The notes under the pieces were generated by a model that saw only the letters and a program-made list of their open reading frames with translations, did not search any database and was not told where the DNA came from. Below are positions 345-55,371 of a stretch of DNA of 64,000 nt, in pieces. The number at the start of each line of letters is the position of its first letter. Position 1 is the stretch's first letter. Position numbers and translations under genes: made by a program. The DNA comes from a virus, in the IMG/VR virus record IMGVR_UViG_3300009702_000014, positions 126,445 to 190,444 of that record, one strand, 5' to 3'.

Positions 345-646
345 TATTCTCCTGAGTAAATATCAAAAGCAGACGTGTAGGTGTGCTTCGCTTGGAGCCC
401 TTTGAACTCGTTTTGTTGGGTACCATTAATAAAAAGCTTGACAGTCGGCACAGATTGAATCCTATATTCTTGTGCAAGCTCGGGAGCTGAGTCTACATCG
501 ACATAATAAAAGTCTAAGGACGGGTACTTTTTAGAAAACTCTTCCATCATAGGGTGGAGGAACTTACAAGGCTGACACCATCCCAATGCGCCAAAATATA
601 CAACAGAATTTGTAAGTTGTGTGCCATCAAAATCAGTGTGTAACAT
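344..646 (-). CDS. trxA: Thioredoxin
   Basis: A 100-aa protein of normal thioredoxin length. The redox motif is in ALGWCQPCKFLHP (C-Q-P-C, near residue 25), and the family cis-proline loop is RIQSVPTVKLF. It reduces disulfides in the cytoplasm, most likely in the ribonucleotide reductase encoded by the next gene, with which it overlaps by TAATG. I chose ATG 646 because GGAG lies six bases upstream; a TTG at 658 is in frame but has no site. The first bases overlap the end of the homing endonuclease gene by 14 bp. Confidence 0.93.
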   Translation of the reverse strand: MLHTDFDGTQLTNSVVYFGALGWCQPCKFLHPMMEEFSKKYPSLDFYYVDVDSAPELAQEYRIQSVPTVKLFINGTQQNEFKGLQAKHTYTSAFDIYSGE

Positions 647-1436
647 GTTTATCTCCAATAAGCCTTTTAGTTTTTCTTTTCATAGGAAGAGTAGTATCCA
701 AGAGAAGGCCGCGCGCTTTGATACGTTGTATCTCTTCCACTCTAAAGCGTAAATCCCAATAATTACCTGACTTACGTTTAGTTATCTTACCATTAAATTC
801 CTTACTCAATCCTTCTAAAAAGACTAGACTAGCAGATGTTATTGATATAGAACGGCCATCCTTTTTAACCCAACCATCCCCGTCTATGACTCCCCTCAAG
901 AGGCCAAGTTTAAACTGCTCTTGGGCTTGAAAGAACTTGGGAGTAAGTGACATATCATATGTTTTTGAACTAAAAGTTAGATATTCTCTAACTGTCTCCA
1001 TGAATTTTGGCATTGTACAGATATACCTAGATTTAAAACTGGAGGAAAGTGAATTTATATCTACTCTTTGCACAATATCCTCGGCGGAAAAGTTTTCAAG
1101 AAGTAGATTAAAGAAAGCCACTACAGTATCGTGGTCTTTAGATGAGAGGCTAAGTGCAACTCGTTCTACGGGCGACCGATTCTTTCTATTGATTGTAGCG
1201 GAACCATCTGTCGCAAATAACCCTACTGCCCAGCCTAATGCAAATAATTCTATATTCTGTCGTTCTTTATACTTTGTACGATAGCCCCGTGTCCGTGGAC
1301 TGTTTAGTTTGGAACGATGTTCTACGACTGTCCGCCGCCCGCGCCCTAATTGAGCGGCAATCCAAGCATTAGACTTATCTTTATGCTCTAAAAGAAAGTC
1401 TGTTTCTTTTTGACTCCATCTATTATGTTTTCCCAT
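633..1436 (-). CDS. LAGLIDADG homing endonuclease with SANT/Myb-like N-terminus
   Basis: A 267-aa protein. Residues 1-45 look like a Myb/SANT-type helix-turn-helix (RWSQKETDFLLEHKD ... WIAAQLGRGRRTV). Two LAGLIDADG helices follow: GWAVGLFATDGS at 68-79 (Asp77) and LGLLRGVIDGDGW at about 177-189 (Asp185/Asp187). This is the layout of a single-chain, pseudo-dimeric DNA cutter that copies its own gene into empty alleles. It is free-standing, squeezed between a PD-(D/E)XK-like gene and thioredoxin, and overlaps thioredoxin by 14 bp. ATG 1436 is preferred over an ATG seven codons upstream because a -10 box ends seven bases before it and there is no Shine-Dalgarno; the mRNA is probably leaderless. 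Confidence 0.88.
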   Translation of the reverse strand: MGKHNRWSQKETDFLLEHKDKSNAWIAAQLGRGRRTVVEHRSKLNSPRTRGYRTKYKERQNIELFALGWAVGLFATDGSATINRKNRSPVERVALSLSSKDHDTVVAFFNLLLENFSAEDIVQRVDINSLSSSFKSRYICTMPKFMETVREYLTFSSKTYDMSLTPKFFQAQEQFKLGLLRGVIDGDGWVKKDGRSISITSASLVFLEGLSKEFNGKITKRKSGNYWDLRFRVEEIQRIKARGLLLDTTLPMKRKTKRLIGDKHVTH

Positions 1437-1471
1437 ATTTACATTATATAGCACCAAAGCGCATAGCTCAA
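1437..1471 (-). promoter_or_regulatory. Sigma70-type promoter for the LAGLIDADG gene, leaderless arrangement
   Basis: On the minus strand, TTGAGC (1471-1466), a 17-bp spacer and TATAAT (1448-1443) are followed by six bases and then ATG 1436. The predicted start site coincides with the A of the start codon. The -35 box overlaps the end of the upstream nuclease gene. Confidence 0.6.
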
Positions 1472-36839: not shown

Positions 36840-36865
36840 AAAGTATCCTTATCTCTATAATATTT

Positions 36866-37522
36866 TTATAAAGCCCCCCAGATACGGCTTTTATTGGATT
36901 GATATTGGCCATAATCATGGGTGATATACATTTGTAAGTCTGCGTTCATAGTAGTGTTTTGGTCCGAGCGGTGTGTGAAATCCAAAGAACTCACAACAAC
37001 TTTATAACGAGCTATAAGTTTTTCTGTACCATCTGCGAATTCATCATATCCAATCAAATAAAGTCCACCATAAAAACGTCCTTGATTAGCAGAAAGGTAG
37101 GTCAAGGCTTCTAACCCTTTTTCATAAATTTCCCATAATCGCCCCGCCTTAATAATTTTAATTCTCATACCTAATTGTCTCATGGCTTGACCAAAGGTTG
37201 TCAAGGAATTACCACCAAGTGTATTGTACTGTACAACCTTATTCTTTGTACTTGGGCTATATTCCTGAGCAAGTGCAACCCCAGTATTAAAAGGTAGAAT
37301 AAGAGTAGAATTGTAAGCTACTCGTATAATCTCTTGTAAACTAAAAGTATTAGGGTCTTGTGCAAGAGAAGATGGTTGTTGGGCAGCCTCTTCTACAGAA
37401 CTACCTACGTATTTAAGTTTCTCACCAAGAACATAAAGCCTTGCTCCCCCTCCGCGAACATAGGGAAATGAAGGACGCCATTGAAGCTGATATCTTTTAA
37501 GTTGGTTAGAACTAGCGGCCAT
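36866..37522 (-). CDS. Baseplate or tail-hub protein
   Basis: A 218-aa protein. Beta-type with YQLQWRPSFPYVRGGGARLY at the start and LTYLSANQGRFYGGLYLIGY in the middle. It is placed where small hub-associated proteins occur. It overlaps the transglycosylase gene end by 11 bases. Confidence 0.45.
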   Translation of the reverse strand: MAASSNQLKRYQLQWRPSFPYVRGGGARLYVLGEKLKYVGSSVEEAAQQPSSLAQDPNTFSLQEIIRVAYNSTLILPFNTGVALAQEYSPSTKNKVVQYNTLGGNSLTTFGQAMRQLGMRIKIIKAGRLWEIYEKGLEALTYLSANQGRFYGGLYLIGYDEFADGTEKLIARYKVVVSSLDFTHRSDQNTTMNADLQMYITHDYGQYQSNKSRIWGAL

Positions 37523-40211
37523 TTACAATCTCCTGGATTTTAGTGCCTACAGCGTTTGCCAACGCAGAGTGACTTACAAAATTTGCCTGGGTATTAATAT
37601 ACAAATAGTGCTCCGCTTTTTGCATATGGTATTTCGTATCTAGCTTCTGAGCTTCCGTAGTTAATAAATCGTACTTATTTATACTTGTAGCAGTATTAAG
37701 CGCTTTGTTACTAAACAATCCATTATAACCCAACATGACTCTATATACAAGGTCTTGTTTTGTGATATAGCCTTTATTTCCTACATCTAATGTATAGTTT
37801 TGAGCGTATACCTTCGAGCCTGCGCGTGCAATAATCCAAGACATAGGTTTCCCTATTGCTGCTGGCCAGAAGATAGCGGCATAAACATCACCGATATTGT
37901 CATAACCCTCATGGAATAGTTTACTATACTGAGACATATACTTCTCTACATAGGTTAGTTGCTCAATTGGTGACATCTGAGATAGCGCTTTAATGGTTGT
38001 TCCAAGCTTAGATGCTGTATCGGGCATAAACTGAATTAAACCAGTAGCTCCACTTCCCATCATGTTTTTCTGTGAAGGAGAGAGCCCAGATTCTACTTGC
38101 ATTGCTGCTAATAGGTATCGTGGATTAATACCCAGCCTATCAGAAATCTCTTGAACTTTTTCCAAAAATGGTTTTCCCACTTTTTGAGCTACCCCGAATG
38201 GGAGTGCTTGCATTAATTGCGAAGCTTTTTGTATGCCTGTATGAACTACCGGACCCAAAGGCACTAGGGGTGTGCTCATCGTTTTAGGAAGATTATTTAT
38301 AATTTGTTTATAGTCGGCAATCGTCTGAGATAAAGAGTGTGGCTTTGTAGAGGCCTGTTCTTCATGGAGAGTTTTGGCGATTGTTATTCCGAATTGGCCT
38401 ACCATACTAACAAAACGAGGGGCGTCTTTTTCAAATGCATTCACAATCATGTCATTTACCTGTCCCAAAAGCTGTGCGTGCTTCATTATTTGTTTAGACA
38501 AATCAATGTTTCCCTGTGCAAACTTTTGTGTCCAACTTGACATAAAGAAATTGGGGTCTAAATAATATGAGGCTATAGTCTGATTCACGCCATTTATATA
38601 AGTATTGTATACTTCTGTGGCTCTTGCTCCATTAACATACAAATGCAATGCCCGCATAAGAACTTGCTGTGTAGAATTGTTAACACCCAATCCATAATGC
38701 ATATACATGTAATAGTTTTTCAGCATACCTTCATTTAAAGTGGCTGTTCCTGGTGTAAAACTTTCTTTGGTAATACCCAATTTAATAGCAAGGGCTCCCA
38801 GAACCTTATTAAATGTATCTGAATTTCCCGTTACCCCCCGAAGCGCAGCAGCAGGAGAAATATGGCCGATAGCTAATAGCTCATTAGCTCGGGCATTTGT
38901 CATAATTGCTCCCTGCCCTAAAACTTCATCCAAACCTTTTACCATAGTCTGCGTTGGTTGGGTTGTCAACATGCTCTTGAATTGGTTATCTTTAGCTACA
39001 AAGTTTTGAATGTTTGCTAGATTCTGAGGAGCCGAGGCATTCATTTTTACAGCATATCCGTAATCCTTAGAAAAAGCGGTCAACTCTCCCACAAGTCTTA
39101 TCTGGGCAACCTGAGGCTTGCCGCCGCCCGAGACGGCTGTAAAGAATTTTTCAAATTCTCGTGTAGATTCTTGTATAGCTTTTTGTCTAGGACCAATTAG
39201 AGATAGCTGTGAGTAAATCTGAGCGGTCGCCTGGGGATCGGCTCCATAGAGCCCAGCCATGATTGCAGAGTTAGAAACATAAGATTGCAAATCAGACATG
39301 TTTTTTACACGAGCATTATGAGATATATAAGCAATAAGTGGTTCTAATTGAGTATAATCATATCCAAGGCGGCTCAATGGCATACCAAACATACTCTGAT
39401 TACGCATCGTGTCCATCAGGGCATAACCATTGTTACCATTAAATTGACTATATCCTACAAAAGAGGAAGCATAAGCATTAAAATCGTTTACAATACGTTG
39501 TTTATCCAGAAGTTTAGAAGCAAATATTTGTCGGGCACGAGAATGTGCATATCCAGATGTAATACGCCCCCCAACATATTGACCGATATGTTGCAATGCT
39601 ACGGTAGTTGCAATGTCAACAACAGCCAAAGCTAGACCGGCAATCAAACTTGTTCCGGCTGTTTCTGGGGCTGCTGCCACACTAGCTGCTAACTCCTGTG
39701 TTTCACGCGCTCTAGCTCCAACTTTAGCAGCGGTTACTACATCACGAATAGCCCCACCTATCCGTTCTATTGTACCCATATTACGTAAAACAGTATAGCC
39801 AACACTCAAAAAGTTAGCTAGCATATTTCCATATTTGAAGGAAATTTCAGTTTGCGTTCGAAGCATATCTGCAACGGCTTGTTGATAACCTCCTACAGCC
39901 CGTTTAGTAATATTGAAAGACGGCATAGTTACAAAATTGAATTGGTCCTGAATTCTCCGGGCCGCAAAGAATGTACCGGCTGCACCACCGAGGACAGAAG
40001 CCCCAACAGTAGTTTTCAATTTTTGAAGACTTTCATCCAAAGAAGGTCCCGGACCCCCTTGACGATAGGGGCGCCAAATATCATTAATACCAGTAATAAT
40101 TCTATTCTCTTCTCTCCTCCCCATCCCAAAGATGATTAAGCGAGTTTCTTCATCCATAGGAAGACTCGCTATAGCAGATTTTTGTTTGTGGGTTAAAGAA
40201 TCATAATCCAT
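37512..40211 (-). CDS. Tail protein with C-terminal lytic transglycosylase domain
   Basis: An 899-aa protein. The SLT domain occupies about residues 690-830: LLAAMQVESGLSPSQ with catalytic Glu707, then SGATGLIQFMPDTASKLGTT and the NIGDVYAAIFWP segment. It would open peptidoglycan during DNA entry. The N-terminal 650 residues carry helical segments and a hydrophobic stretch near 185-215 (AAAPETAGTSLIAGLALAV) and may be a membrane-active tape-associated part. It follows the tape measure gene. Confidence 0.85.
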   Translation of the reverse strand: MDYDSLTHKQKSAIASLPMDEETRLIIFGMGRREENRIITGINDIWRPYRQGGPGPSLDESLQKLKTTVGASVLGGAAGTFFAARRIQDQFNFVTMPSFNITKRAVGGYQQAVADMLRTQTEISFKYGNMLANFLSVGYTVLRNMGTIERIGGAIRDVVTAAKVGARARETQELAASVAAAPETAGTSLIAGLALAVVDIATTVALQHIGQYVGGRITSGYAHSRARQIFASKLLDKQRIVNDFNAYASSFVGYSQFNGNNGYALMDTMRNQSMFGMPLSRLGYDYTQLEPLIAYISHNARVKNMSDLQSYVSNSAIMAGLYGADPQATAQIYSQLSLIGPRQKAIQESTREFEKFFTAVSGGGKPQVAQIRLVGELTAFSKDYGYAVKMNASAPQNLANIQNFVAKDNQFKSMLTTQPTQTMVKGLDEVLGQGAIMTNARANELLAIGHISPAAALRGVTGNSDTFNKVLGALAIKLGITKESFTPGTATLNEGMLKNYYMYMHYGLGVNNSTQQVLMRALHLYVNGARATEVYNTYINGVNQTIASYYLDPNFFMSSWTQKFAQGNIDLSKQIMKHAQLLGQVNDMIVNAFEKDAPRFVSMVGQFGITIAKTLHEEQASTKPHSLSQTIADYKQIINNLPKTMSTPLVPLGPVVHTGIQKASQLMQALPFGVAQKVGKPFLEKVQEISDRLGINPRYLLAAMQVESGLSPSQKNMMGSGATGLIQFMPDTASKLGTTIKALSQMSPIEQLTYVEKYMSQYSKLFHEGYDNIGDVYAAIFWPAAIGKPMSWIIARAGSKVYAQNYTLDVGNKGYITKQDLVYRVMLGYNGLFSNKALNTATSINKYDLLTTEAQKLDTKYHMQKAEHYLYINTQANFVSHSALANAVGTKIQEIVNGR

Positions 40212-40212
40212 A

Positions 40213-43110
40213 CTAGTACATCAACCTATTTTTTACTACATAGTTCTCAGTGGTTTGGTGGGCAATTTTAGTGATATCTTTGACAGACATCCCATTAAAT
40301 GCCATTGTGAGATACACTGTTCCCCCCGTATCTGTAATCGAAGATTCTCCTACAGAGGAGGTTTGAGAAATATTTTCACCAGACTGTATTCTATCAAGAA
40401 GTTGTCGATTATTACGAGTATTGTTATCAGAGATTACATATTCACCGCCATGCACAATACCGGCAATATCCATACGTCCACCAGAACCGGTAAATCCACC
40501 TATGGCGTGCCCAGGAATAGATGTCGCATTTGGTCCAAAGTGGGCATTTAAATATTGTGGGGTAATGGTGATTGCATTTGGTCCTGTTGTCAAAGCGTTT
40601 ACTCGTCTGCGTAAAGAGGTTAAAGCGCCGGATGGAAGAGTAATATTATTATTAGAAAGCCACGTATCAAGAACGGCTTGGGCATTCTGTTTCCTTTGTG
40701 GCACAGGAATCGCAGCCGCTTCGGTAGCAGAACCTTGTTTATATGGATTCGGTTGGTTAAGAACTTGCGCCATTTGAGTAACCATTCGCTGGATGCCAGC
40801 TTTGGCGTCGTCAATAATTTGATGGCCGGAAGCGTATTTAAGAAGCATATTTTGGATTGTTTCCATCTGTTTCATAACAACCTGGCTAGCATTAGTCATA
40901 GCGTCTACCTGTGCAGAAATTCCTGTATTTAACTTACCAAGCTGGGATTGAACAATCTGCTCAGCGCGGGTTTGCACCTGACTTTGGCCTTTGTCTACTG
41001 CTGCCTTAGCCTCAGCACTCATTTGTCCGTTATCACCAATAAACTTATTTTTGCCAACCATTTGCATCAAATTTAGTAGTATCTGTGCTCCTGGTACTCC
41101 TTGGAAACCCGTTTGCTGCATCATTGGCTGAAGGGCACCATATATAAGAGGATTTTCTCCTACCAAGTCCGCAGGATTCATATTCTGCCATCCTTTAGGA
41201 AGCATACCATTCTGCGTGAGCGCACCGATACCGGACTGTAGAATGCTCTGCGTTACTTGGGGACTGCCTTTGAATATGCTCTTGAAGCTATTACCCAAAG
41301 ACATACTATAAGCAAGTGTTGCTGGGTTACTTAATTGAGACTGTACTCCTGAATAAATCTGATTAGCCACAGTAGCAAAAGCTTGTGGATTTGTTTTCAT
41401 TAGATTGCCCAAATTAGTACCACTTTCAGACATTGTATGATAGAGATTTGTAACCTCTTTCTCCAAATTCTGATTTGTACGAGCTACATTCTTAAGTTGT
41501 AAGCTTTCAGTAACTTTCAATAGCGATGGAACCAAAACAGACATCGCAAAATTGCTGATTTGACCATTTTGGGCAGTTGCACCAGCAGCCATTTGGACAC
41601 TACGCTGAGCATTTTGTGAACCCATCATCTGTGCAGTTTGTAGCATTCCTGTAGCAGCACCTTCGTTGATACCATAGCCGCGAGCTAATTCCCCGACAAA
41701 AGCAGTATTTCCCAAAAGTTGCTGTCTATTAGCTGAAACAGTATTAAGAGACACTTGTGACATTAGCTGCCCCATTTGAGCAGCAGTATAACCAAGGCCA
41801 CGCATATTTCTGCCTTGACCCATGATAAATTGGTCTAGTACAGCATTGCCTGTTCCTATCTGTCCAGTCGGTAACATCCTATGAGCGGCTGCTTGGTCTC
41901 CGTAGTAATAACCAAACTGGGAGCCCGCCCCGGCTTGAATTAATCCAGCGACTGAGCCTTGAAAGTTTTGTAGAAGTGTTTGTGGATTAGCTACTGTTTG
42001 TGCAATACTTTGCTGGATAATTTTATCCTTGGAGGTTGTGATATGAAGTGACTGTAAGACATTGTTAAATACACCCGCAGCACTCAAGGCAGAAACAACA
42101 GAGCCAATGGCCATTGTTGCCAAACCTGCACCCCGACCGGCGGCTGTTGTTGCTGTGCGCATAGTATTTAGGCCAGCTATAGCACCACCAGCACCAGCCA
42201 TCATAAAGGTCTGATTAAGTCCTACATCATATTGTTTTTCTTGGGTAAAGGCTGAGCCTAATGCACCACCAACAGCACCTTGCTGACCCATGACATTCAT
42301 TGCAGGTCTAAATCCGTAGGTGAAAGGGTCTTGAATAAAACGGTGAGATGCAATTGTACTTAGTGCCATTGTTGAGGCAAGAGCACTCAAAAAACCCATT
42401 GTTTTATCTAGCCCGCGTTTTTGGTCTTTATTTGATGCATTAACGATATTCTGCAATTCTTTAAGAAGATTACCTTTAGAGCGAGACTCGGTAGAGAAAC
42501 GATGCAGCTCTGCATCGGACATACCAGCCCCCGTACCTACCTGATGATGGATTCTCTTTATATCAACAGATAATTCTTGAATCTTTTCCTCAAACATTTT
42601 ACGCTGCTCGGGAGTTAATTCTTCCCCCATTTGAAGCGCACTACGTGCCATACGCGCTTGAGAGCGTATACGCCATAATTCTTCTTGATTATATCCACGG
42701 TTAAGCGGATTAGCTGAGGCTTCCATCATTTCTAGAGCACTTAAATGACTTGTCGCAGTCCCACGCAAACTAAGCATGGCAGCACCGTAGCTACCAGGAG
42801 CCGGAATGCCGCCCTCCTGTTTGTAACTACTGACTATCTCTATGACGCCGCGAAGATATTGTTTCAAATCTTTAATATCAGCGCCAAAAATATCTTGTTG
42901 GTGGGACCTATAAATATCACGCACGACGCTCATTTCTTGCCTCATGCGTTTTTCCATCACGCTCGCGCTTTCAATAGATGGTCTTACCGTACCAGGAGGA
43001 ATATCATAACCATAGACCTCATTGCCACGACGTAAAGCCGCCTCAACATCTTCACTATACATCGGAAAGTTGGTAGTGAGCCCTTTTCTTAGGTCGTCAT
43101 TATTAGGCAT
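40213..43110 (-). CDS. Tail tape measure protein
   Basis: A 965-aa protein in the place of the tape measure. It has long helical Gln/Met/Ala-rich stretches, several hydrophobic regions near 245-350 (FLSALASTMALSTIASHRF, AGLATMAIGSVVSALSAAG) and the C-terminal IVHGGEYVISDNNTRNN segment common in tape measures. It sets tail length and is ejected with DNA. It lies directly after the tail assembly chaperone gene. Confidence 0.87.
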   Translation of the reverse strand: MPNNDDLRKGLTTNFPMYSEDVEAALRRGNEVYGYDIPPGTVRPSIESASVMEKRMRQEMSVVRDIYRSHQQDIFGADIKDLKQYLRGVIEIVSSYKQEGGIPAPGSYGAAMLSLRGTATSHLSALEMMEASANPLNRGYNQEELWRIRSQARMARSALQMGEELTPEQRKMFEEKIQELSVDIKRIHHQVGTGAGMSDAELHRFSTESRSKGNLLKELQNIVNASNKDQKRGLDKTMGFLSALASTMALSTIASHRFIQDPFTYGFRPAMNVMGQQGAVGGALGSAFTQEKQYDVGLNQTFMMAGAGGAIAGLNTMRTATTAAGRGAGLATMAIGSVVSALSAAGVFNNVLQSLHITTSKDKIIQQSIAQTVANPQTLLQNFQGSVAGLIQAGAGSQFGYYYGDQAAAHRMLPTGQIGTGNAVLDQFIMGQGRNMRGLGYTAAQMGQLMSQVSLNTVSANRQQLLGNTAFVGELARGYGINEGAATGMLQTAQMMGSQNAQRSVQMAAGATAQNGQISNFAMSVLVPSLLKVTESLQLKNVARTNQNLEKEVTNLYHTMSESGTNLGNLMKTNPQAFATVANQIYSGVQSQLSNPATLAYSMSLGNSFKSIFKGSPQVTQSILQSGIGALTQNGMLPKGWQNMNPADLVGENPLIYGALQPMMQQTGFQGVPGAQILLNLMQMVGKNKFIGDNGQMSAEAKAAVDKGQSQVQTRAEQIVQSQLGKLNTGISAQVDAMTNASQVVMKQMETIQNMLLKYASGHQIIDDAKAGIQRMVTQMAQVLNQPNPYKQGSATEAAAIPVPQRKQNAQAVLDTWLSNNNITLPSGALTSLRRRVNALTTGPNAITITPQYLNAHFGPNATSIPGHAIGGFTGSGGRMDIAGIVHGGEYVISDNNTRNNRQLLDRIQSGENISQTSSVGESSITDTGGTVYLTMAFNGMSVKDITKIAHQTTENYVVKNRLMY

Positions 43111-43430
43111 TAATTACCTCTTCGGCGTTCCTCTTTATCAATATCTTTTAAGAAATCCTCATCAATAACCAGATTATCTAAATTGCCATCGTCTCCAAAC
43201 TTTTCTTGAACCTTCTTAAGCCAGTTTGGGTCTCCAGAGTTCATAATATCATCAATATCCTGAGCAAACTCTTCTTCTTCTTTTTCCTCAGGAGTAAGTT
43301 CCTTACGATTACCAAGCTCAAGCTCTATAAGTGTAAAGATAGCATAGTGGTCGTCAGTCCACCTACTGAGGGAAGGCGCATATGGAACTAAATTTCCTCC
43401 CTGTCTTTCTTCGGCACCTAATAACGCCAT
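43110..43430 (-). CDS. Tail assembly chaperone, frameshift extension
   Basis: This reading frame has no ribosome site before ATG 43430. Its frame is open upstream to the slippery site at 43499-43508, and translation there by a -1 shift yields a 291-aa fusion (start 43984, end 43110), the equivalent of lambda gpGT. The joined segment reads KLLSTYEWRNIIDAWRKSS and then enters MALLGAEERQGG. The acidic C-terminus (TPEEKEEEEFAQDIDD) may bind tail-tube subunits. Confidence 0.87.
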   Translation of the reverse strand: MALLGAEERQGGNLVPYAPSLSRWTDDHYAIFTLIELELGNRKELTPEEKEEEEFAQDIDDIMNSGDPNWLKKVQEKFGDDGNLDNLVIDEDFLKDIDKEERRRGN

Positions 43431-43492
43431 TAGTTCATTATCTTCGGAGGATTTTCTCCATGCATCTATGATATTACGCCATTCGTAGGTGC

Positions 43493-43984
43493 TTAGGAGT
43501 TTTTTAAATCATCTTCTTCTACTGCTGTATTTTCTAACCAGTCTGCGTGCTTTACAATGGCATCAGAAACAAGCATTTCCTCGGATAATCCTTTATTATA
43601 GACTTCTTCCATGACATACTTTTCAAAGAGGCTGCTGTAATCCAAATCTTCTGCGGAATTAAATTCATAATCCGAATAAGTCTTTCCATTTTTCTTAATT
43701 TTACCCTTTTCATCGGTAACAAGGATACGGGTAATAGAGCTATTTAGGTTGCCCCAATACTGGAAGAAGTAAGTTAGTTGCGGGTCTTCCTCAATTGGAT
43801 TTGTAAAACCCATTTCATTGAGTTTTTTACTAGCCCAGGCGCGACCTCTGTATTTGTCCTTGAAAGACGGGCGTTGGAAAATAACGTAAATGTTCCAATT
43901 CTCAAGGAGTATAAAGTCACTGGGCTCATTTAAAAGGAGTCCCATCATCTTATTTTCAGTTTGTGTGATATCTGTTTCAGCCAT
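43493..43984 (-). CDS. Tail assembly chaperone (gpG-like)
   Basis: A 163-aa protein ending EDDLKNS just after the slippery site. FILLENWNIYVIFQRPSFKD and EFNSAEDLDYSSLFEKYVME look like a gpG-type chaperone. Together with the frameshift product it guides tube and tape assembly. ATG 43984 has AGGTGAGG upstream and is preferred over a start 17 codons earlier. Its promoter is at 44012-44040. Confidence 0.83.
   Translation of the reverse strand: MAETDITQTENKMMGLLLNEPSDFILLENWNIYVIFQRPSFKDKYRGRAWASKKLNEMGFTNPIEEDPQLTYFFQYWGNLNSSITRILVTDEKGKIKKNGKTYSDYEFNSAEDLDYSSLFEKYVMEEVYNKGLSEEMLVSDAIVKHADWLENTAVEEDDLKNS
43499..43508 (-). other. Programmed -1 ribosomal frameshift site
   Basis: Minus strand T-TTA-AAA-AAC in frame with the first chaperone (... 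GAT TTA AAA AAC TCC TAA). Slipping one base back avoids the stop at 43493-43495 and enters the second frame, which has no stop until 43110. Confidence 0.9.
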
Positions 43985-44011
43985 AAATTCCTCACCTTTC
44001 TGTATACACTC

Positions 44012-44040
44012 AATATACTCTAAAAAAGAATTCAAGTCAA
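44012..44040 (-). promoter_or_regulatory. Promoter for the tail chaperone and tape operon
   Basis: Minus strand TTGACT (44040-44035), 17 bp, TATATT (44017-44012). It stands directly downstream of the tail-tube terminator. Confidence 0.72.
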
Positions 44041-44046
44041 GAGAAA

Positions 44047-44065
44047 AGCGGAGCCGAAGCTCCGC
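44047..44065 (-). terminator. Terminator after the tail-tube genes
   Basis: Minus-strand GCGGAGC-TTCG-GCTCCGC, a seven-pair stem with a UUCG tetraloop, followed by TTTTCTC. It separates abundant tube messages from tail assembly genes. Confidence 0.9.
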
Positions 44066-44087
44066 CTTTACTGGGGTGATACCTATT

Positions 44088-44777
44088 TTAGGAACGATAA
44101 CCGAATAGCACGGAAGTAACTAGGTCAAGCATACCATTCTTAGAGTCGCCATTTTCTCGATAGGCGCGTTTGATGGCATCAGTAAACCAAGTGCCGCTCA
44201 TTGGACGGGCAACAGCATTTACAGAATCCATAATTACGGATTGCTGAGAAGTCATGCTAATAGAAGCAGACTGTAAAACGCAGACGTAGGAACCGAAGCT
44301 ACTAGCGCGAGCGTCAGGACTATTAGGTGTGGCCGGTTGGTTATTGTATGTGACGTTGGAACGTACAGAGCTATTAGAGACACGATTCAACACATTCAAG
44401 ACAAACATGAAAGGATACATGCTGGTATCAGTGCTGTCGATAATGCTTTGAGCAGCCGCGATATCAACCAAATTAGAAGCCTGATAGGTCTTACCTATGT
44501 GAGCCCATAGAGGGTTGAAGGAGCCAAGATTACGGAAGTCTGCCCCGTCAATAGTGGCCTTCTCTAGACGAATATTAGTGATTTGATAGCCCGGAGCCAA
44601 CACGGGTAGCGGAGTGCCAATGACATTCTCGGCACAGCTTCCGAAGTTATCATCGACATTGACATTTTGTGCCATTCCGACTTGCTTTAGAATCCCCTTC
44701 TTGTTGGGGGAACCATCAAGAAGATAGTCATGGGGAGGAACAAGTACGCGAATTGAAGCAAATTGGGAAACTCTCAT
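44088..44777 (-). CDS. Tail-tube-like protein (second copy)
   Basis: A 229-aa protein with a layout like that of the next gene upstream: GMAQNVNVDDNFGSCAENVI compares with GLARQLRIDEDWGTQNIYGI there, followed by a PLPVLAPGYQITNIRLEKAT / PRIVPNNYSVNVTAERIQLD pair. The two are probably diverged tail-tube proteins. GGGAG precedes ATG 44777, and a strong terminator follows. Confidence 0.62.
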   Translation of the reverse strand: MRVSQFASIRVLVPPHDYLLDGSPNKKGILKQVGMAQNVNVDDNFGSCAENVIGTPLPVLAPGYQITNIRLEKATIDGADFRNLGSFNPLWAHIGKTYQASNLVDIAAAQSIIDSTDTSMYPFMFVLNVLNRVSNSSVRSNVTYNNQPATPNSPDARASSFGSYVCVLQSASISMTSQQSVIMDSVNAVARPMSGTWFTDAIKRAYRENGDSKNGMLDLVTSVLFGYRS

Positions 44778-44790
44778 CTAATTACTCCCT

Positions 44791-45462
44791 TTATGCCAAC
44801 GCCGTGCTGCGAGACTGGAGGGCTATATTGTTTGTCAAGTTCTCATTAATCATATTCGTGGTATCGAATAGGAATTCTTCGTAAGAATACTTGAATCCAA
44901 TGAGATTAACGTTATTGGCAATCATTACATCACCAGAGGTAACGGCCTCAGAGGAGCTACGCGGCATGACGGCATAAATATCAAAACGGTTATTTTCCGT
45001 AGATTCCTTGCTCTTGACAAATAGATAGGTATAAAGCAGCAGGTCATTAATACCGATTTGCTGTTGAACAGTGTCAGCGTACCAATAGTCTGGTGTTGTG
45101 ATGTAATGAGCAAGCTCACGTGTGTCAAGCTGGATTCTTTCAGCCGTCACATTAACGCTATAATTATTAGGTACGATACGTGGCTTTGTCGGTGCACCAA
45201 TGCCATAGATGTTCTGCGTTCCCCAGTCCTCATCAATACGAAGCTGACGAGCCAAACCCACAGTTGTGAATACTCCATTCTTATTAGATTGAAGCGCCTG
45301 CGGGCCCTGAGAAAGTTTATTCTGTAGCTTGGTTAGAGCATCAGACACGGCATTCTTAGTTACATTGGAGCCGGTGATTTGGTCTGCCCTCAAATTCCCA
45401 TATAAAATGGAGGAAATTGAAAGCACCTTAACTTCTGCTAGTGTACTTAGTCTAACGGCCAT
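44791..45462 (-). CDS. Tail-tube-like protein (first copy)
   Basis: A 223-aa protein in the usual tail-tube position, downstream of the sheath gene, with a homing endonuclease inserted between. Beta-type, ending in QSRSTALA. The GGGAGG ribosome site lies inside the last codons of the endonuclease gene, which overlaps the start by 11 bases. It should form or cap the rings inside the sheath. Confidence 0.65.
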   Translation of the reverse strand: MAVRLSTLAEVKVLSISSILYGNLRADQITGSNVTKNAVSDALTKLQNKLSQGPQALQSNKNGVFTTVGLARQLRIDEDWGTQNIYGIGAPTKPRIVPNNYSVNVTAERIQLDTRELAHYITTPDYWYADTVQQQIGINDLLLYTYLFVKSKESTENNRFDIYAVMPRSSSEAVTSGDVMIANNVNLIGFKYSYEEFLFDTTNMINENLTNNIALQSRSTALA

Positions 45463-46699
45463 CTAAATAAACCTCCCATTTTTGGGTTCCTGGGCCATAA
45501 ATGTAAAAATATCCAAAATCATTTAATATTTCCTCCGCTGTTTTATCTTCTGCATAGGAAGGTAAGCTTTTTAAATTCTTTCTCTGAAACCCTCGTCTAT
45601 TATATATCTTTTTGTAGTCAGTTACAAATAGTCGATGCCTGCTTTGACCGGTTTGAGTGAAACCTAATTTCTTATAGGCATTTCCGGTACTATATCTATT
45701 ATCAGAGTAAGTTATTATATGTGTTTTATCGCTTGCAACCAGGAGTTTTCCCAAGGCCCCGCGAATAATCGTATCTCGTTTAGAACAAAATCGTTGCATA
45801 ATATTTTTAGAGAAACCCATGACTGAGACCAATTCCCCATCATAGGATAATCCGACTCTCTCACCTGAGAATACGGTTCCCTCTAGATGATTATTCTCTA
45901 AAAACTCATTATACTCTAAAAAGGATGGATACACCACCTTGCATTTTCTGGCCGATAACTTCCTTGCGGTTTTGCCTAATTTATTATTCAAAAAGGAAGC
46001 AACTAAATCAGGCTTTTCTAATACTTCGGAATCCCAGAATTGTACCAGTTGAATTCCCTTTTTCTGCGCGGCTCTGAATTTCTCCTCATGATAGTTGGCA
46101 TTTCTTTTACTATGCCAGTAAAGACCATTTATTTCTATCCCCAGCCTGTGTTCAGGAAGGTATATATCAATTTCAAGCGGAGAAAGTATCTCTCTGTCAT
46201 TTACGGTAAACTTCTCATTTCCCAATATCTCTATTATTACTTGATAGGAGAATTCAGGTCTAGTTTTTTGATTATAAAATACGTGTGAAGTTATTTTCTC
46301 ATTATAGCATTGTGCGCACCCAGCACCATTCATATGGTCGTGTGCATATTGTGTAAATGCACCGTGTGTTTTACAAATTATCGTTGGATACTTTCCAACG
46401 CGCTCGCCAACCTGAGAATAGTCGTATTTGTTTCCATGTACTTCCCGCGCTCTAGAAATAAAATCTTCACGAGTTAATACTTTGTTTGGAGCACAGAGTG
46501 GGCAACCTTGCCCTTTAAGATGCTTATTAGGTGTTTGGCTAAAATCTCCATGCGTTCTACAGGTAATCGTAACCTTGGTGGAGTCATTGACATAATCAAC
46601 TTTATCGTAAATATATCTATCTTTGTGTATTTCTTTTGCTTCAGCTAAAAACTCATCTTGGGTTTTAGATTCCATTTTCCCTGTTTTTCTTTCGCACAT
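45452..46699 (-). CDS. Vsr/EDxHD-like homing endonuclease, main frame
   Basis: A 415-aa frame with two zinc ribbons (VTITCRTHGDFSQTP ... GQGCPLCAP; PTIICKTHGAFTQYA ... GAGCAQCYN), then a Vsr/PD-(D/E)XK-like core (SPLEIDIYLPEHRLGIEING, YWHS, QLVQFWDSEVL) and the C-terminal domain shared with its two relatives (ITYSDNRYSTGNAYKKLGFT, IYGPGTQKWEVYLDG). An additional first ribbon is encoded in another frame at 46645-46869, so the full gene is frameshifted. Its own promoter precedes that first part. Inserted between tail sheath and tail tube. Confidence 0.82.
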   Translation of the reverse strand: MCERKTGKMESKTQDEFLAEAKEIHKDRYIYDKVDYVNDSTKVTITCRTHGDFSQTPNKHLKGQGCPLCAPNKVLTREDFISRAREVHGNKYDYSQVGERVGKYPTIICKTHGAFTQYAHDHMNGAGCAQCYNEKITSHVFYNQKTRPEFSYQVIIEILGNEKFTVNDREILSPLEIDIYLPEHRLGIEINGLYWHSKRNANYHEEKFRAAQKKGIQLVQFWDSEVLEKPDLVASFLNNKLGKTARKLSARKCKVVYPSFLEYNEFLENNHLEGTVFSGERVGLSYDGELVSVMGFSKNIMQRFCSKRDTIIRGALGKLLVASDKTHIITYSDNRYSTGNAYKKLGFTQTGQSRHRLFVTDYKKIYNRRGFQRKNLKSLPSYAEDKTAEEILNDFGYFYIYGPGTQKWEVYLDGR

Positions 46700-46869
46700 A
46701 TAGGGCAGCCGCTTCCTTTTAGATGGTTATATGGAAGCTGGCGAAATTCCCCGTGCTCAGGACAAATAATACGAATTTTATCCTTGGTACGGAGAAGCTC
46801 AACAAATGAGTAATCATATTTATCTTTATGCACTTTATTAGCCCGCTCAATAAACTCTTGCGTAGTCAT
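46645..46869 (-). pseudogene. First zinc ribbon of the homing endonuclease, frameshifted
   Basis: A 74-aa frame starting at ATG 46869, with one ribbon (IRIICPEHGEFRQLPYNHLK ... GSGCPICAKEK). It runs into a stop eight residues after the shift point. The downstream frame continues the same pattern from about 46690. The change lies in an A-rich run (GCGAAAGAAAAACAGGGAAAA) and no good slippery heptamer is in register, so mutation or sequence error is more likely than programmed shift. Confidence 0.7.
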
Positions 46870-46874
46870 GCCCT

Positions 46875-46903
46875 ATTATAAGTTGATTCCCCCTCCCTGT
46901 CAA
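46875..46903 (-). promoter_or_regulatory. Consensus promoter for the homing endonuclease, leaderless
   Basis: Minus strand TTGACA (46903-46898), 17 bp, TATAAT (46880-46875), five bases, ATG 46869. A nine-pair GC-rich hairpin (46888-46916) surrounds the -35 box and may also end sheath transcription. Confidence 0.85.
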
Positions 46904-46916
46904 CCAAGGAGGGGGA
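46888..46916 (-). terminator. GC-rich hairpin after the tail sheath
   Basis: Minus-strand TCCCCCTCC / GGAGGGGGA with an 11-base loop, just after the sheath stop at 46922. The downstream tract is not T-rich, so it may stabilise mRNA rather than terminate. Confidence 0.45.
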
Positions 46917-46921
46917 GATAA

Positions 46922-48835
46922 TTAGGCCAAGTTGTAGAGAAGTCGGTTAGTAACCGGAATGAAGTCCACCTCGGTTACTGGCTGGAAGTCAAATGTAATA
47001 GCGTAAACTGTCAAATCATTATTTGGTGTAACAACGATGTTGGCATACGCGACAAGAACACCCTCGGAAACTAGTTGTCCTAGCAATGCTTCCGTGTAGC
47101 TCTTGATGCGGGCAGCGGTTTCAGGGCCGCGTGAGGTTGCGCCAATGAAATTCTCTTCCAAATTCTTGTAGAGAAAGGTGTTCATGTAGTCGACAATACG
47201 ACGGGTCATGAATAGCTGTAGGCCACGACTCGGTGCGCCAGTGAAGCTGGTGTAGTTGTTGGCAGCAATGTACTCCAAAGCCCCTGTCGAAGTACGGCGC
47301 TTCTTGACGAAATCCCATGCGCGGGTATACAGCTCGTCACGCTGAGCCTGAGTGAAGGAGAACTCTAGGCCATCCGTGAATATTCCAGCTAGCTGAGCGA
47401 AGGTCAAAGAGGTTGCTACGCTGCGGGCAGCCTGAGCACCTACAACAAATGAAGCTAGCATCTCTCCGCCGTAATCTTCTACGCTGCTACTAAAGGCGGT
47501 GCTCTTAAAGCCCCCGGCCCATAGCTGGACTCTATCACTGTTGATAACCCCACTAATGTCTTGTGTTGCATCAAGGAAGTCAGCCGCCGTCTTATTAGCG
47601 GTATCGCCCTTTAGGTAATATGGCATACCCGTAATCATGCTACGGAACATACGATTTGGAATATTTGACAAAGTATTAATGTGGGCAAGGAACAAAGGCA
47701 TCAAGGCCTTATAGAACCCGTACCTCTCGGTCCAAGTTGTCGAGTTCGTGCTGGCCCCTGTGTAATTAAACAGATAGGCAGGTTGAATAAAGTTAACCTC
47801 TTCGCTTTCAAAAAGAGCTAGAGAAGTAACCCAAGAGTCAGTCATAACCGTAGAACCGGACGTATCCCAACTCATTAGACCACCATTGTAATATCCGGTA
47901 CCATCGTCCCCATTTGTACCACCTGATAGGGAGATATAAGCGTGTTCGATAATATCGTCGGCTGTAGTTGCATCGTAGACGTAACCAGCAGTTAGTAGTT
48001 GCGTCATGGTCGGGTTTGTATCATTTAGCGTAACGAGGTTGGAACTTGTCATACCAAGCCCACCGTTGTTAATTACGGCCTCGATAAGAGCGAGCGGGTA
48101 AGAATTGGTACCTGTTCCATAAGGGAAGGGCCCAAGTAGGGATTCGCTGGTGGACTTTAGGTTATCTACCTGCTGAATGAAATCCGCCTGCGTAGCATTT
48201 CCGTATCCCCATGTATTCGGGATTTCACGAATTTCACCAGTTAGATTATTGTATAGAACGTAGTAATCTGTGGTGTTATTGTTGTAATAACGGTATGCGG
48301 TTGCTCCTGTGCTGTCTGTATAAACAGGATTAGGAATATAAGCCGAGAAGATGTAGCTTTCACGAATATCATTGCCGCTGGCATCAATATACTTCACATC
48401 AATTTCAAGAGTATCATCATCTGTAGGTACAGTGCCCTGGGTGTTTAGGGTAACGGCAACCTGGATATTATTGCCAAGAGTACCGTAATCCTTAGCTGAC
48501 CAAGAGTAGCTCTGGCTGGTTGCACCGCTAATATTAATGGCAAGCAGCTTAGATTGTGTAGCTGTACCTGTGCGAACACAGATAAGTTGATTAGCCCCAC
48601 CGACATAAGCGGCGAGACCGTGGCGGACAAGTGGGCCGTCACCGAAGGTATCGACCAATTGCGTGTAACTAGTGATGGTTACTGCCTGATTTAGCGGCCC
48701 CTTTTCTGCGAGACCAATCATACCGATGATGTTTGAGGCAACACCATTAATATCAGTAAGGCCGCTCAAGTCAGTACGGATATAAGCTCCGAACTGCTTA
48801 ATCAGATAACCGCCTAGACTAATCTGTTTTGCCAT
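46922..48835 (-). CDS. Tail sheath protein
   Basis: A 637-aa protein. The start (GYLIKQFGAYIRTDLSGLTD, then GVASNIIGMIGLAEKGPLNQ) and the C-terminal part (FIGATSRGPETAARIKSYTE, then GVLVAYANIVVTPNNDLTVY) fit phage contractile sheaths, whose C-terminal arms link neighbouring subunits. It forms the outer tube that contracts. GGAGG precedes ATG 48835. It makes the phage a myovirus. Confidence 0.93.
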   Translation of the reverse strand: MAKQISLGGYLIKQFGAYIRTDLSGLTDINGVASNIIGMIGLAEKGPLNQAVTITSYTQLVDTFGDGPLVRHGLAAYVGGANQLICVRTGTATQSKLLAINISGATSQSYSWSAKDYGTLGNNIQVAVTLNTQGTVPTDDDTLEIDVKYIDASGNDIRESYIFSAYIPNPVYTDSTGATAYRYYNNNTTDYYVLYNNLTGEIREIPNTWGYGNATQADFIQQVDNLKSTSESLLGPFPYGTGTNSYPLALIEAVINNGGLGMTSSNLVTLNDTNPTMTQLLTAGYVYDATTADDIIEHAYISLSGGTNGDDGTGYYNGGLMSWDTSGSTVMTDSWVTSLALFESEEVNFIQPAYLFNYTGASTNSTTWTERYGFYKALMPLFLAHINTLSNIPNRMFRSMITGMPYYLKGDTANKTAADFLDATQDISGVINSDRVQLWAGGFKSTAFSSSVEDYGGEMLASFVVGAQAARSVATSLTFAQLAGIFTDGLEFSFTQAQRDELYTRAWDFVKKRRTSTGALEYIAANNYTSFTGAPSRGLQLFMTRRIVDYMNTFLYKNLEENFIGATSRGPETAARIKSYTEALLGQLVSEGVLVAYANIVVTPNNDLTVYAITFDFQPVTEVDFIPVTNRLLYNLA

Positions 48836-50608: not shown

Positions 50609-50624
50609 ATAGTTAATTATACCA

Positions 50625-52199
50625 TCAAACCTTAGAAAAGGTCCATTTTTTAGTTCCGGGACCCCAAATCTGATAGAAACCGTGTTTCTCGGCTATTTCC
50701 CTGGCCGTCAATTCCGAATCTCCGTATTTCTCGATTAGTTTATGTCGTTGGAATTGGTTTCTGGAGTACAAGTTAATCGTATCAGTATAATGCAAAGTGT
50801 ATCTGTTTACCTTGTCGAGAGTAAAACCTAATGTTTTATAAACTTCTCCGCTGCTATACCTATTAGCAGAGAAAGAGATTAAGGTGTCGTGGGATTTTAG
50901 AAAATCCTTTATTATTTTTCCAGCCCCGCCAACTACTATTAATCCCCGCTTAGAGGCTAATCTGTCAAGGTGGTTTCCTGTAAACCCTCCAACAGCGACA
51001 AGATTCCCATTGTAGAGGAGTCCTTTCTTTATCTTAGAATTTATTGCACCTTGCAGATGGTTTTCTGTAAGGAAGGATTTATACGTAGTGCTGTCAATAT
51101 TTACCAGATTACATTTCCTCGCATAGATTCTATCAGTGAGCCGGTTTAATTTAGCTAGAATCATATCCTGGACCAGTTCAATGTTGTCTCGGATTTCATA
51201 ATCCCAGAATTGCAAAAGTTTTATTCCAGCATTTTCTGCGGCCTTAAATTTATCATAATGATACCCTCTTTCCTTGAAAATGGTACTATGATAATAAAGT
51301 CCATTTATTTCTATAGCTAATTTATTCTTGGGGATATATATGTCCAATTCCTTTGGATATATCATAGACCGGTCATTAACTTTGTATTCAACATCTATAC
51401 TGTCAAGAAAGTTTATAATCCTTTGGTGGGGCGTGGAAACATTGCAGGCTGGACACCCCAGCTTATCATATAAATGCCTTACCACGCTTCTTTGGAACCA
51501 CCCGTGTTGGGCGCACTTTATATCCAATAGTTGTCTATTGTTGCGATATATAAAGGGTTTATATTCATAATTAGGAAAGAGCTTCTTGCCTTCTTGGATT
51601 ATGATATTAGAGTTCAACACTCTCTTTGTCTTATTACAGTCCGGGCAACCATATCCTTGCAAATGGTTTAGTGGTTGTTTAATAAAGTCCCCATGCTCGG
51701 GGCATGTAATTATGACATTTTCCTTGTTGTTAATGTATTGGGTTTTAGAGTAGTCGTACTTCTTGCCATGTATTTTTCTGGCTTCTTTAATAAACTCTTT
51801 TGTATCCCTTTTTACATTGCCCGCGCATAGGGGACATCCTACCCCTTGTAGATGGTGCGCCGGTGTTTGTTCGAAAGGCCCATGTTCATTACAGATTATT
51901 GTAACTTTATTTTGGCTGCCTAGATAATCTACACGGCTGTAGTCATATTTAGAATGGTGTACCTCTTTTGCTTTATCAACAAACTGCTGGGTTGTTTTTT
52001 GCCCGCGCCCAGCATAGGAACATTTTGGGCATCCCTGTCCTTGGAGATGCTTTGCTGGGGTTTGGTAAAAGGAACCATGTTCCTTGCAAATTATTTCTAC
52101 TTTTGTTTGTGAATTCTTATATGAAACTTTTGAGTAGTCATATTTGGTCCCGTGTTTATGGTCGGCAGCCGAAATAAAAGATGAGGTATCATATTGCAT
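50625..52199 (-). CDS. Vsr/EDxHD-like homing endonuclease with four zinc ribbons
   Basis: A 524-aa protein. Four ribbons cover residues 1-250, each with a KYDYS-like start and C-x2-H-G ... GCP-x-C (examples IICKEHGSFYQTPAKHLQGQ; ITCPEHGDFIKQPLNHLQGY). Then the nuclease core: KELDIYIPKNKLAIEINGLY with E-x-D, YHS, YHYDKF and LLQFWDYEIRD, as in Vsr and the EDxHD group that includes I-Bth0305I. The C-terminal domain (SFSANRYSSGEVYKTLGFTL, then GPGTKKWTF) is shared with the other two relatives. Leaderless start at 52199. Confidence 0.87.
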   Translation of the reverse strand: MQYDTSSFISAADHKHGTKYDYSKVSYKNSQTKVEIICKEHGSFYQTPAKHLQGQGCPKCSYAGRGQKTTQQFVDKAKEVHHSKYDYSRVDYLGSQNKVTIICNEHGPFEQTPAHHLQGVGCPLCAGNVKRDTKEFIKEARKIHGKKYDYSKTQYINNKENVIITCPEHGDFIKQPLNHLQGYGCPDCNKTKRVLNSNIIIQEGKKLFPNYEYKPFIYRNNRQLLDIKCAQHGWFQRSVVRHLYDKLGCPACNVSTPHQRIINFLDSIDVEYKVNDRSMIYPKELDIYIPKNKLAIEINGLYYHSTIFKERGYHYDKFKAAENAGIKLLQFWDYEIRDNIELVQDMILAKLNRLTDRIYARKCNLVNIDSTTYKSFLTENHLQGAINSKIKKGLLYNGNLVAVGGFTGNHLDRLASKRGLIVVGGAGKIIKDFLKSHDTLISFSANRYSSGEVYKTLGFTLDKVNRYTLHYTDTINLYSRNQFQRHKLIEKYGDSELTAREIAEKHGFYQIWGPGTKKWTFSKV

Positions 52200-52204
52200 A
52201 CCTC
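52176..52204 (-). terminator. Hairpin over the endonuclease start codon
   Basis: Minus-strand GAGGTAT / ATACCTC with an eight-base loop, followed by ATCTTTTATTTC. It follows the connector gene by 35 bases and could end its transcript, but it also folds over ATG 52199 in the endonuclease message. Confidence 0.5.
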
Positions 52205-52233
52205 ATTATATACGAGAAGAAGAATTGTGTCAA
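52205..52233 (-). promoter_or_regulatory. Consensus promoter for the homing endonuclease, leaderless
   Basis: Minus strand TTGACA (52233-52228), 17 bp, TATAAT (52210-52205), five bases, ATG 52199. A perfect sigma70/sigmaA consensus. Confidence 0.85.
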
Positions 52234-54101: not shown

Positions 54102-54110
54102 ATTATAGCA
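54102..54110 (-). promoter_or_regulatory. Extended -10 promoter
   Basis: Minus strand TGC followed by TATAAT (54107-54102), a perfect extended -10. The -35 region is weak (TTGGAT). It gives a leader of about 50 bases for the 63-aa gene. Confidence 0.6.
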
Positions 54111-54111
54111 T

Positions 54112-55290
54112 TCAATTGTGGTAAATCCAAGTCTTTGTGCCAGCATCATATACTTGAAGAGCCCCTTCTTGGCTCGCAAGTTGTCGTTCAGTGTAATTTT
54201 CTGGATTCTGTATGTCAAGACGACTCGCAATTTTGTATTTCATAAACCCATTTCGGTTTTTAAGCTTATTTTTATGGTAATAGAATAGTGAGGTTTTATT
54301 TTCTCTCTCAAGTGTAAATCCATTTTTCACATATACGTCACCATGACTATATCGGTTGAAAGAATAGGAAATAATGGGTTTGTCTTTGGGAATACGTTTG
54401 AAAAGCTTTGAAAATCCCCCTACGACTATATACCCACGCTCTGTACAAAACCTATCCAACTCCCGGTGTTCACCATAGTCCGTTACACCCATTACCGCTA
54501 TAAGACGGTCCTGAAAAAGCAAACCCAGCTTAATACCTGAGGTACGCGGGCCTTCTAAATGGTGTTTTTGAAGAAAGTCTTTATATTGTAAACTATCTAC
54601 TAACACCACTTTAGTATTGCGAGCATACACTTTGTGCTTCACTAGTTGAAGTCTTTGCAATATCATGGAAGATACTAAATCGAAATTATCCTGTATCTCA
54701 AAGTCCCAAAATTGCAATAAGGAAATACCACGGTTTTCACAAAGTTTATACTTATCATAATGATAATACTTATCCTCAAGCTTGTCAAGGGTATGATAGA
54801 ACACGCCGTTAATCTCTATGGCGAGGGAATGCTCGGGAAAATAAATATCTAGCTCTTTCCCATCTAGTAGGGTACGGTTGTTGACCTCATAGGGTATCTT
54901 TAGGTTGTCCAAAAAAGTTATGAGTTTTCTATGTGGGGCAGACACATTGCACTTCGGGCATCCTTGCATTTTCTTCGAAATATGCATGTGAGGAGTTTGC
55001 CAGAATTCTCCGTGTTTGGGACAAATGATACATACTTTTGTTTTAACCCCCTTATACTCTACCTTCGAATAGTCATAAAAGTCCCCATGTATACTCTGTG
55101 CTTGCTTGACGAAGGAGTCAAAGGTATGTTTCCACCTTTTTGTGATACCGAGAAGATGAGCAATATGCTTGACTTTCTGTGGTTTAATCTGTAAATGCTC
55201 CGCTATCTCACTAACTGATTCCCCTCGTTCATAGGCAGAAATGATATAGTTGTCGTATAGCTTTTTCCGTTGCAGTACGTCTTTCCTCAT
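54112..55290 (-). CDS. Vsr/EDxHD-like homing endonuclease with HTH and one zinc ribbon
   Basis: A 392-aa protein. Residues 12-50 are a helix-turn-helix (YERGESVSEIAEHLQIKPQK), followed by one zinc ribbon (CIICPKHGEFWQTPHMH ... MQGCPKCNVS), the nuclease core (KELDIYFPEHSLAIEINGVF, YHYDKYKLCENRGISLLQFW) and the common C-terminal domain (SYSFNRYSHGDVYVKNGFTL, DAGTKTWIYHN). It sits between the capsid gene and the 63-aa gene. ATG 55290 has no ribosome site, but a -10 box lies eight bases upstream. Confidence 0.85.
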   Translation of the reverse strand: MRKDVLQRKKLYDNYIISAYERGESVSEIAEHLQIKPQKVKHIAHLLGITKRWKHTFDSFVKQAQSIHGDFYDYSKVEYKGVKTKVCIICPKHGEFWQTPHMHISKKMQGCPKCNVSAPHRKLITFLDNLKIPYEVNNRTLLDGKELDIYFPEHSLAIEINGVFYHTLDKLEDKYYHYDKYKLCENRGISLLQFWDFEIQDNFDLVSSMILQRLQLVKHKVYARNTKVVLVDSLQYKDFLQKHHLEGPRTSGIKLGLLFQDRLIAVMGVTDYGEHRELDRFCTERGYIVVGGFSKLFKRIPKDKPIISYSFNRYSHGDVYVKNGFTLERENKTSLFYYHKNKLKNRNGFMKYKIASRLDIQNPENYTERQLASQEGALQVYDAGTKTWIYHN

Positions 55291-55298
55291 ATACAAAC

Positions 55299-55327
55299 AG
55301 TATACCATAGAGATACATGAAAGTAAA
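55299..55327 (-). promoter_or_regulatory. Promoter for the third homing endonuclease
   Basis: Minus strand TTTACT (55327-55322), 17 bp ending TGG, TATACT (55304-55299), eight bases, ATG 55290. The expected transcript begins within 0-2 bases of the start codon. Confidence 0.6.
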
Positions 55328-55342: not shown

Positions 55343-55371
55343 CAAAAAGAAGAGGCCGCATAAACGGCCTC
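55343..55371 (-). terminator. Terminator after the major capsid gene
   Basis: Minus-strand GAGGCCG-TTTATG-CGGCCTC, then TTCTTTTTG, about 20 bases after the capsid stop. Confidence 0.9.

Follow-up and report, generated by a model that had tools for sequence, protein, structure and literature searches.

This locus, a stretch of 64,000 nt (the window) within a virus record of 201,951 bp (G000), raises the question of how homing endonuclease genes (HEGs) that sit in the structural operons of a phage are transcribed and translated. An earlier note on this DNA had proposed that leaderless promoters drive all four HEGs of the window, and that each gene would consequently be expressed right after insertion without having to fit the host operon. 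Here we relate the promoter and start-codon geometry of these genes to their insertion sites, to the rest of the record, to related phages, and to related HEGs from other viral contigs.

Three of the four genes (HEG1, HEG2, and HEG4) are Hef-like: Pfam identifies in them a series of DUF723/DUF4379 zinc fingers and, behind these, a restriction-type nuclease domain. HEG2 (50625..52199; this and all other window features described below are on the minus strand) encodes 524 aa with DUF4379/DUF723 repeats and a DUF559-like nuclease, and HEG4 (54112..55290) encodes 392 aa. HEG1 is divided into a first frame of 74 aa (46645..46869) bearing the first DUF723/DUF4379-like zinc-finger repeat, and a second frame of 415 codons (45452..46699), displaced by -1 relative to the first, which bears further zinc-finger repeats and a nuclease domain that matches MTES_1575 REase weakly. 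Matches to the Hef-like family were obtained by tblastn in 1007 phage records, annotated Hef-like HEGs included, and the alignment contains invariant E..D..E..G..H columns. HEG3 (633..1436) encodes a LAGLIDADG endonuclease of 267 aa (PF14528, E=3.8e-11) with no relatives in the phage collection. Single-sequence scans of viral contigs using HEG2 and HEG3 returned no relatives, whereas alignment-based scans did find relatives. The frame change in HEG1 takes place at a GGGAAAA run (46681-46675), which provides an in-phase G_GGA_AAA heptamer of a known slippery type, and the joined product would comprise approximately 472 aa. Programmed -1 frameshifting was nevertheless not adopted, since no structure is predicted downstream of the frame change (z +1.2) and the heptamer is not rare (17 in the window vs 11.9 expected), so that a simple frameshift mutation or an error in sequencing is equally likely. 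Split in this way, HEG1 may be a dead gene. Searches of the window for RNA families and tRNAs found none.

All four HEGs are preceded by a sigma70-type promoter in which the -35 and -10 boxes are separated by 17 nt, and the -10 boxes end 5, 5, 6, and 8 nt before the ATG of HEG1 to HEG4, respectively, precisely where the earlier note had placed them. The promoters of HEG1 (TTGACA, 46898..46903; TATAAT, 46875..46880; ATG 46869) and HEG2 (TTGACA, 52228..52233, 5 nt past the stop codon of the upstream gene; TATAAT, 52205..52210; ATG 52199) are, as had also been claimed, perfect, and share the arrangement TTGACA-N17-TATAAT-N5-ATG with the same spacer and the same gap. Those of HEG3 (TTGAGC, 1466..1471, overlapping the upstream stop codon at 1470-1468; TATAAT, 1443..1448; ATG 1436) and HEG4 (TTTACT, 55322..55327; TATACT, 55299..55304; ATG 55290) have -35-like boxes that match the consensus at 4 of 6 positions only. 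Given its 8-nt gap, the HEG4 transcript may have a leader of 1-2 nt; a second in-frame ATG is located at 55308, 18 nt upstream. A hairpin resembling an intrinsic terminator (55352..55371) separates the major capsid gene from the HEG4 promoter, and a strong G+C hairpin (46888..46916) lies between the tail-sheath stop codon and the -10 box of HEG1, the -35 box being contained within its loop and 3' arm.

Gene starts were surveyed from the window to the end of the record for a -10 box matching at least 5 of 6 positions at 3-9 nt from the start together with a -35 box matching at least 4 of 6. Such a promoter was found only at the HEGs and at gene 50608, that is, at 4/4 HEGs vs roughly 1/59 other genes (Fisher p ~8e-6), counts that are approximate because the gene calls are simple ORFs with inferred starts. 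Shine-Dalgarno (SD) matches of at least 4 nt precede 55 of the 71 surveyed genes and are lacking at the tabulated starts of HEG2, HEG3, and HEG4; HEG1, whose 74-codon first ORF is too short for the SD table, was judged by eye to have no SD at a usable spacing. A GAGGT directly abuts the HEG2 ATG and is therefore too close to serve as an SD. The contention that the HEGs lack an SD which most other genes possess was thus borne out, and all four show the two features that characterize -10-adjacent leaderless genes, namely a TANNNT box approximately 5-8 nt before the start and no usable SD.

The history of the four sites could be approached through IMGVR_UViG_3300040801_002290 (G001; 194 kb), a close IMG/VR relative with a capsid protein 78-80% identical to that of G000 and a collinear order of structural genes. 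G001 is without all four HEGs (HEG2-type genes are absent from it), which makes it useful as an empty-site reference, and the genes that flank each of the four HEG sites in G000 are direct neighbours in G001; the HEGs are therefore insertions, each placed after one stop codon and before the start codon that follows. The promoters are located between the upstream stop codon and the HEG, and promoter and HEG thus arrived together at insertion. Part of the HEG3 -35 box may be native phage sequence, given that it overlaps the upstream stop codon. On the opposite side, the displaced next gene receives its start signal from the 3' end of the HEG at all four sites. A GGAGG within the coding end of HEG1 is the SD of the downstream gene, and the 3' end of HEG3 overlaps its downstream gene (ATG 646) and carries a GGAG for it. 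The 3' end of HEG2 contains a promoter (TGGACC-N18-TATAAT, 50616..50645) situated 7 nt before the ATG of gene 50608, so that the leaderless-type promoter of this gene comes from the HEG, and that of HEG4 contains a promoter (TTGGAT-N17-TATAAT, 54102..54130) and, beyond it, there is a leader whose AGGAGG (54057-54052) serves downstream gene 54043.

Whether leaderless placement is a property of the HEGs or of the phage was addressed in the remainder of the record and in related phages. The only named relatives of the major capsid protein are those of the Thermus phages phiYS40, TMA, and YS40_Isch (49% identity over 97%), and a search for the host through capsid relatives in bacterial genomes found none. 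A link to the Deinococcota is suggested by the capsid's nearest named relatives. A strict form of the arrangement (TTGACA-N16/18-TAnnnT-N3/9-ATG) occurs 14 times in G000 as compared to a mean of 0.8 and a maximum of 4 in shuffled sequence, 6 times in G001 (0.65 expected), and 9 times in 150 kb of phiYS40 (0.97 expected), where it includes DNA polymerase, primase, and ribonucleotide reductase. Only two of the 14 sites in G000 belong to HEGs; the other 12 are non-HEG sites, most of them outside the window, and some of the 14 open short frames only. Eight fall in a block of small plus-strand ORFs at 36-48.5 kb, also outside the window. In that region (G000 36000-48600, plus strand) many small ORFs have their own TTGACA-N16/17-TAnnnT-N5/6-ATG, and it is likely an early, leaderless gene block of the phage lineage. 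The distance of TATAAT-like boxes from the start peaks at 6-8 nt upstream in the annotated genes of phiYS40 (18 vs 3 on the reverse strand), and the genes of G000 give comparable counts at this distance (16 vs 3). Three non-HEG genes retain the arrangement in both G000 and G001 (17230/149089, 35227/185608, and 108917/44731, respectively). Because non-HEG genes of G000, G001, and phiYS40 use it, leaderless placement is the lineage's own style and is not HEG-specific. Comparison of -10 positions in related phages, which the earlier note had offered as a check on its proposal, accordingly told against a special role for HEGs, as both G001 and phiYS40 use the arrangement for ordinary genes.

In order to place the four genes within their wider family, 95 distinct Hef-like HEGs from other viral contigs were compared with 224 flanking ORFs. 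Sigma70-like promoters within 40 nt of the start were present at 29/95 HEGs vs 26/224 flanking ORFs (p=9e-5), the corresponding reverse-strand counts being 9 and 12. Most of these private promoters lie 15-39 nt upstream, i.e. with a leader, and leaderless placement (-10 box at 4-9 nt) was not significantly enriched (5/95 HEGs vs 4/224 flanking ORFs, p=0.13), the boxes at this distance in the HEG survey all being in A+T-rich sequences. A private promoter is thus common in the Hef-like family and leaderlessness is not. TAnnTTTG, the Bacteroidota -7 motif, was seen shortly before the start of several family members from A+T-rich contigs (22 forward vs 7 reverse across the 95 upstream regions), which suggests that HEG promoters follow the type of the host. 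Viral contigs were also scanned for exact matches to TTGACA-N17-TATAAT-N5/6-ATG. Among the matches listed, 78 of 125 open a frame of at least 60 codons, as compared to 16% of random ATGs; the commonest families behind them are replication and nucleotide genes, the ordinary genes found being exonuclease, primase, dCMP deaminase, thymidylate synthase, ligase, and clamp loader, and the 25 commonest among the listed matches include no homing-endonuclease family. In many viral contigs, perfect leaderless sigma70 promoters thus often precede genes of the replication and nucleotide classes, and this mode of starting therefore seems underrated in phages generally.

We consider it probable that the four genes are HEG cassettes which bring a private promoter of the host sigma70/sigmaA type, adopt the leaderless placement characteristic of the phiYS40-related lineage, and furnish the gene that follows with a start signal from their 3' end. 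As free-standing mobile cassettes lodged between two phage genes, after the stop codon of the first and before the start codon of the second, they would be transcribed by the RNA polymerase of the host, carrying its housekeeping sigma factor, from a position at or 1-3 nt from the HEG ATG, and 70S ribosomes would initiate on the leaderless 5'-AUG. The HEGs would then be active early despite sitting in structural operons; the quality of the promoter consensus is what points to this timing, early expression being likely because the -35 and -10 boxes of HEG1 and HEG2 are perfect. An unlikely alternative is that the leaderless promoter represents an HEG adaptation, namely an autonomous start module able to function at any site of insertion. 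Within the window the arrangement is indeed present at all four HEGs and otherwise only at gene 50608, which is fed by HEG2; it is shared by two unrelated nuclease types (Hef-like and LAGLIDADG), the promoters are at or within the inserted DNA, and a fifth HEG-like gene, of the HNH type (ATG G000:66298), is leaderless-like. These points must be set against the 12 of 14 strict leaderless promoters of G000 that are on non-HEG genes, the strict sites in G001 and phiYS40, which are without these HEGs, the absence of significant leaderless enrichment in the 95 related HEGs, and the ordinary genes returned by the listed matches of the viral-contig scan. HEG-specific leaderlessness as a general rule was rejected on these genome-wide sites and the two surveys. 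Of the original proposal there remains, therefore, a placement suited to leaderless or near-leaderless RNA at each HEG of the window, minus its standing as an HEG trait; likewise, expression immediately upon insertion is plausible as a consequence of the private promoter, and not of leaderlessness.

It is also conceivable, if improbable, that the promoters are real and the HEGs are translated mainly from longer RNAs, or hardly at all, and that the promoter near the ATG mainly restores transcription of the structural genes downstream of the insertion. Such a role would suit insertions that interrupt structural operons, the second promoter at the 3' ends of HEG2 and HEG4, the divided reading frame of a possibly dead HEG1, and the precedent of several T4 HEGs that contain promoters for downstream genes (PMC2988022). 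However, a long transcript would be translated poorly given that no window HEG has an SD, a terminator-like hairpin precedes HEG4, a long RNA would lock the HEG2 start codon in a predicted hairpin, and the best promoters are found at the 5' ends of the HEGs rather than at their 3' ends. A chance or compositional origin, with TATAAT-like words happening to precede ATG in A+T-rich intergenic DNA, is very unlikely. While weak promoter-like sites are common (38 vs 27 expected in the 13 kb scanned) and the -35 boxes of HEG3 and HEG4 are weak, composition would have to account for two perfect 12/12 promoters with an identical 17-nt spacer and 5-nt gap, for 14 strict sites where shuffles give 0.8, and for the contrast between 4/4 HEGs and about 1/59 other genes.

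Translational control of HEG2 may add a further layer to the favoured cassette model. A perfect 9-bp inverted repeat with an 8-nt loop (52181..52206) extends over the HEG2 start codon and is the longest start-covering inverted repeat among the 288 predicted genes of G000. Read-through RNA is predicted to fold the AUG into this hairpin, and RNA starting at the AUG would be without the 5' arm. The whole read-through fold has a z of -1.85, with 9 of 200 shuffles folding as well, and among the other window HEGs a start-covering repeat is limited to 5 bp at HEG4, with none over the ATG of HEG1 or HEG3. The palindrome was also considered as a shared operator and rejected, there being no second copy in the window. 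HEG2, and perhaps others, could conceivably constitute an on/off cassette in which AUG-starting mRNA is free and read-through RNA is silenced by the hairpin, such that its own early promoter would be the sole source of the protein, insulating it from the late operon; we regard this predicted switch as doubtful enough to be treated as a lead.

Several components of this arrangement have counterparts in known systems. In phiYS40, a related phage (capsid 49% identical), a -10 box is found 6-8 nt before many starts and several genes have the strict TTGACA-N17-TAnnnT-N6-ATG; the arrangement there serves core phage genes, whereas here it also serves HEGs, and we know of no phiYS40 HEG with a leaderless arrangement. 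Leaderless phiYS40 transcripts were reportedly described by Sevostyanova et al. in 2007. Middle and late phiYS40 mRNAs are reported to be mostly leaderless (PMC3594737), a further difference being that the HEG promoters here have a full -35 box. In Deinococcus, a TANNNT beside the ORF has been demonstrated experimentally to drive leaderless expression, which a -35 box at 17 bp raises, and leaderless expression from such an adjacent box is widespread in Deinococcus-Thermus (PMC12340547). The HEGs resemble these genes in lacking an SD and in having the box within a few bp of the ORF, together with a -35 box at 17 bp, which strengthens expression there; those genes, however, are bacterial, and the ones described here are mobile HEGs of a phage. 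In T4, some HEGs (segG/gene 32 and others) have a private promoter of the middle or late class and contain embedded promoters that serve genes downstream; no HEG-specific early promoter is known and seven HEGs are promoter-less (PMC2988022). A HEG-specific promoter just upstream and a 3' end that provides the next gene's start signal are thus shared with T4, in which, unlike here, the transcripts have SD leaders and the promoters are middle or late, never early (PMC2988022). A hairpin that hides the start in read-through RNA only, as predicted at HEG2, is likewise known from I-TevI of T4 (PMC2988022), although the I-TevI hairpin hides the SD and that of HEG2 the AUG itself, and it is clear in only one of the four HEGs here. 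For the hidden HNH element of mycobacteriophage ShiLan, leaderless initiation has been proposed at an SD-less phage homing endonuclease; in that case no promoter was shown, and a GTG start lies inside a longer transcript rather than at a leaderless 5' terminus (PMC11855218).

Private HEG promoters with embedded downstream signals (T4) and leaderless -10-adjacent genes (Deinococcus-Thermus, phiYS40) are therefore of known kinds, and what is new is the combination of a private promoter with leaderless placement on HEGs. What is known of promoter choice by HEGs comes largely from T4, in which the promoters specific to them are of the middle or late class and the transcripts have leaders; here, two nuclease types located in structural operons have near-consensus host-type promoters, leaderless placement, and 3' start signals. 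If confirmed, this would mean that HEG cassettes conform to the way in which the phage they inhabit expresses its genes, and that they may be active early. The wider survey shows in addition that Hef-like HEGs of many phages commonly possess a private promoter within 40 nt.

It is important to note that statements on all four HEGs are valid for the window, as at least three further HEG-like genes of the free-standing kind lie elsewhere in G000. The HNH gene with its ATG at G000:66298 has TATAAT-N8-ATG and a weak -35 box, and a LAGLIDADG gene at about G000:79300 has an ambiguous start. The third, an HNH_3 gene at G000:65772 behind a tRNA-like sequence, is without such a promoter and is, as one of the three outside the window, a counterpoint to the promoter rule. 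LAGLIDADG matches also occur within three minus-strand ORFs of more than 1000 codons, at about 105.1, 125.7, and 190.8 kb of G000, and these are probably inteins.
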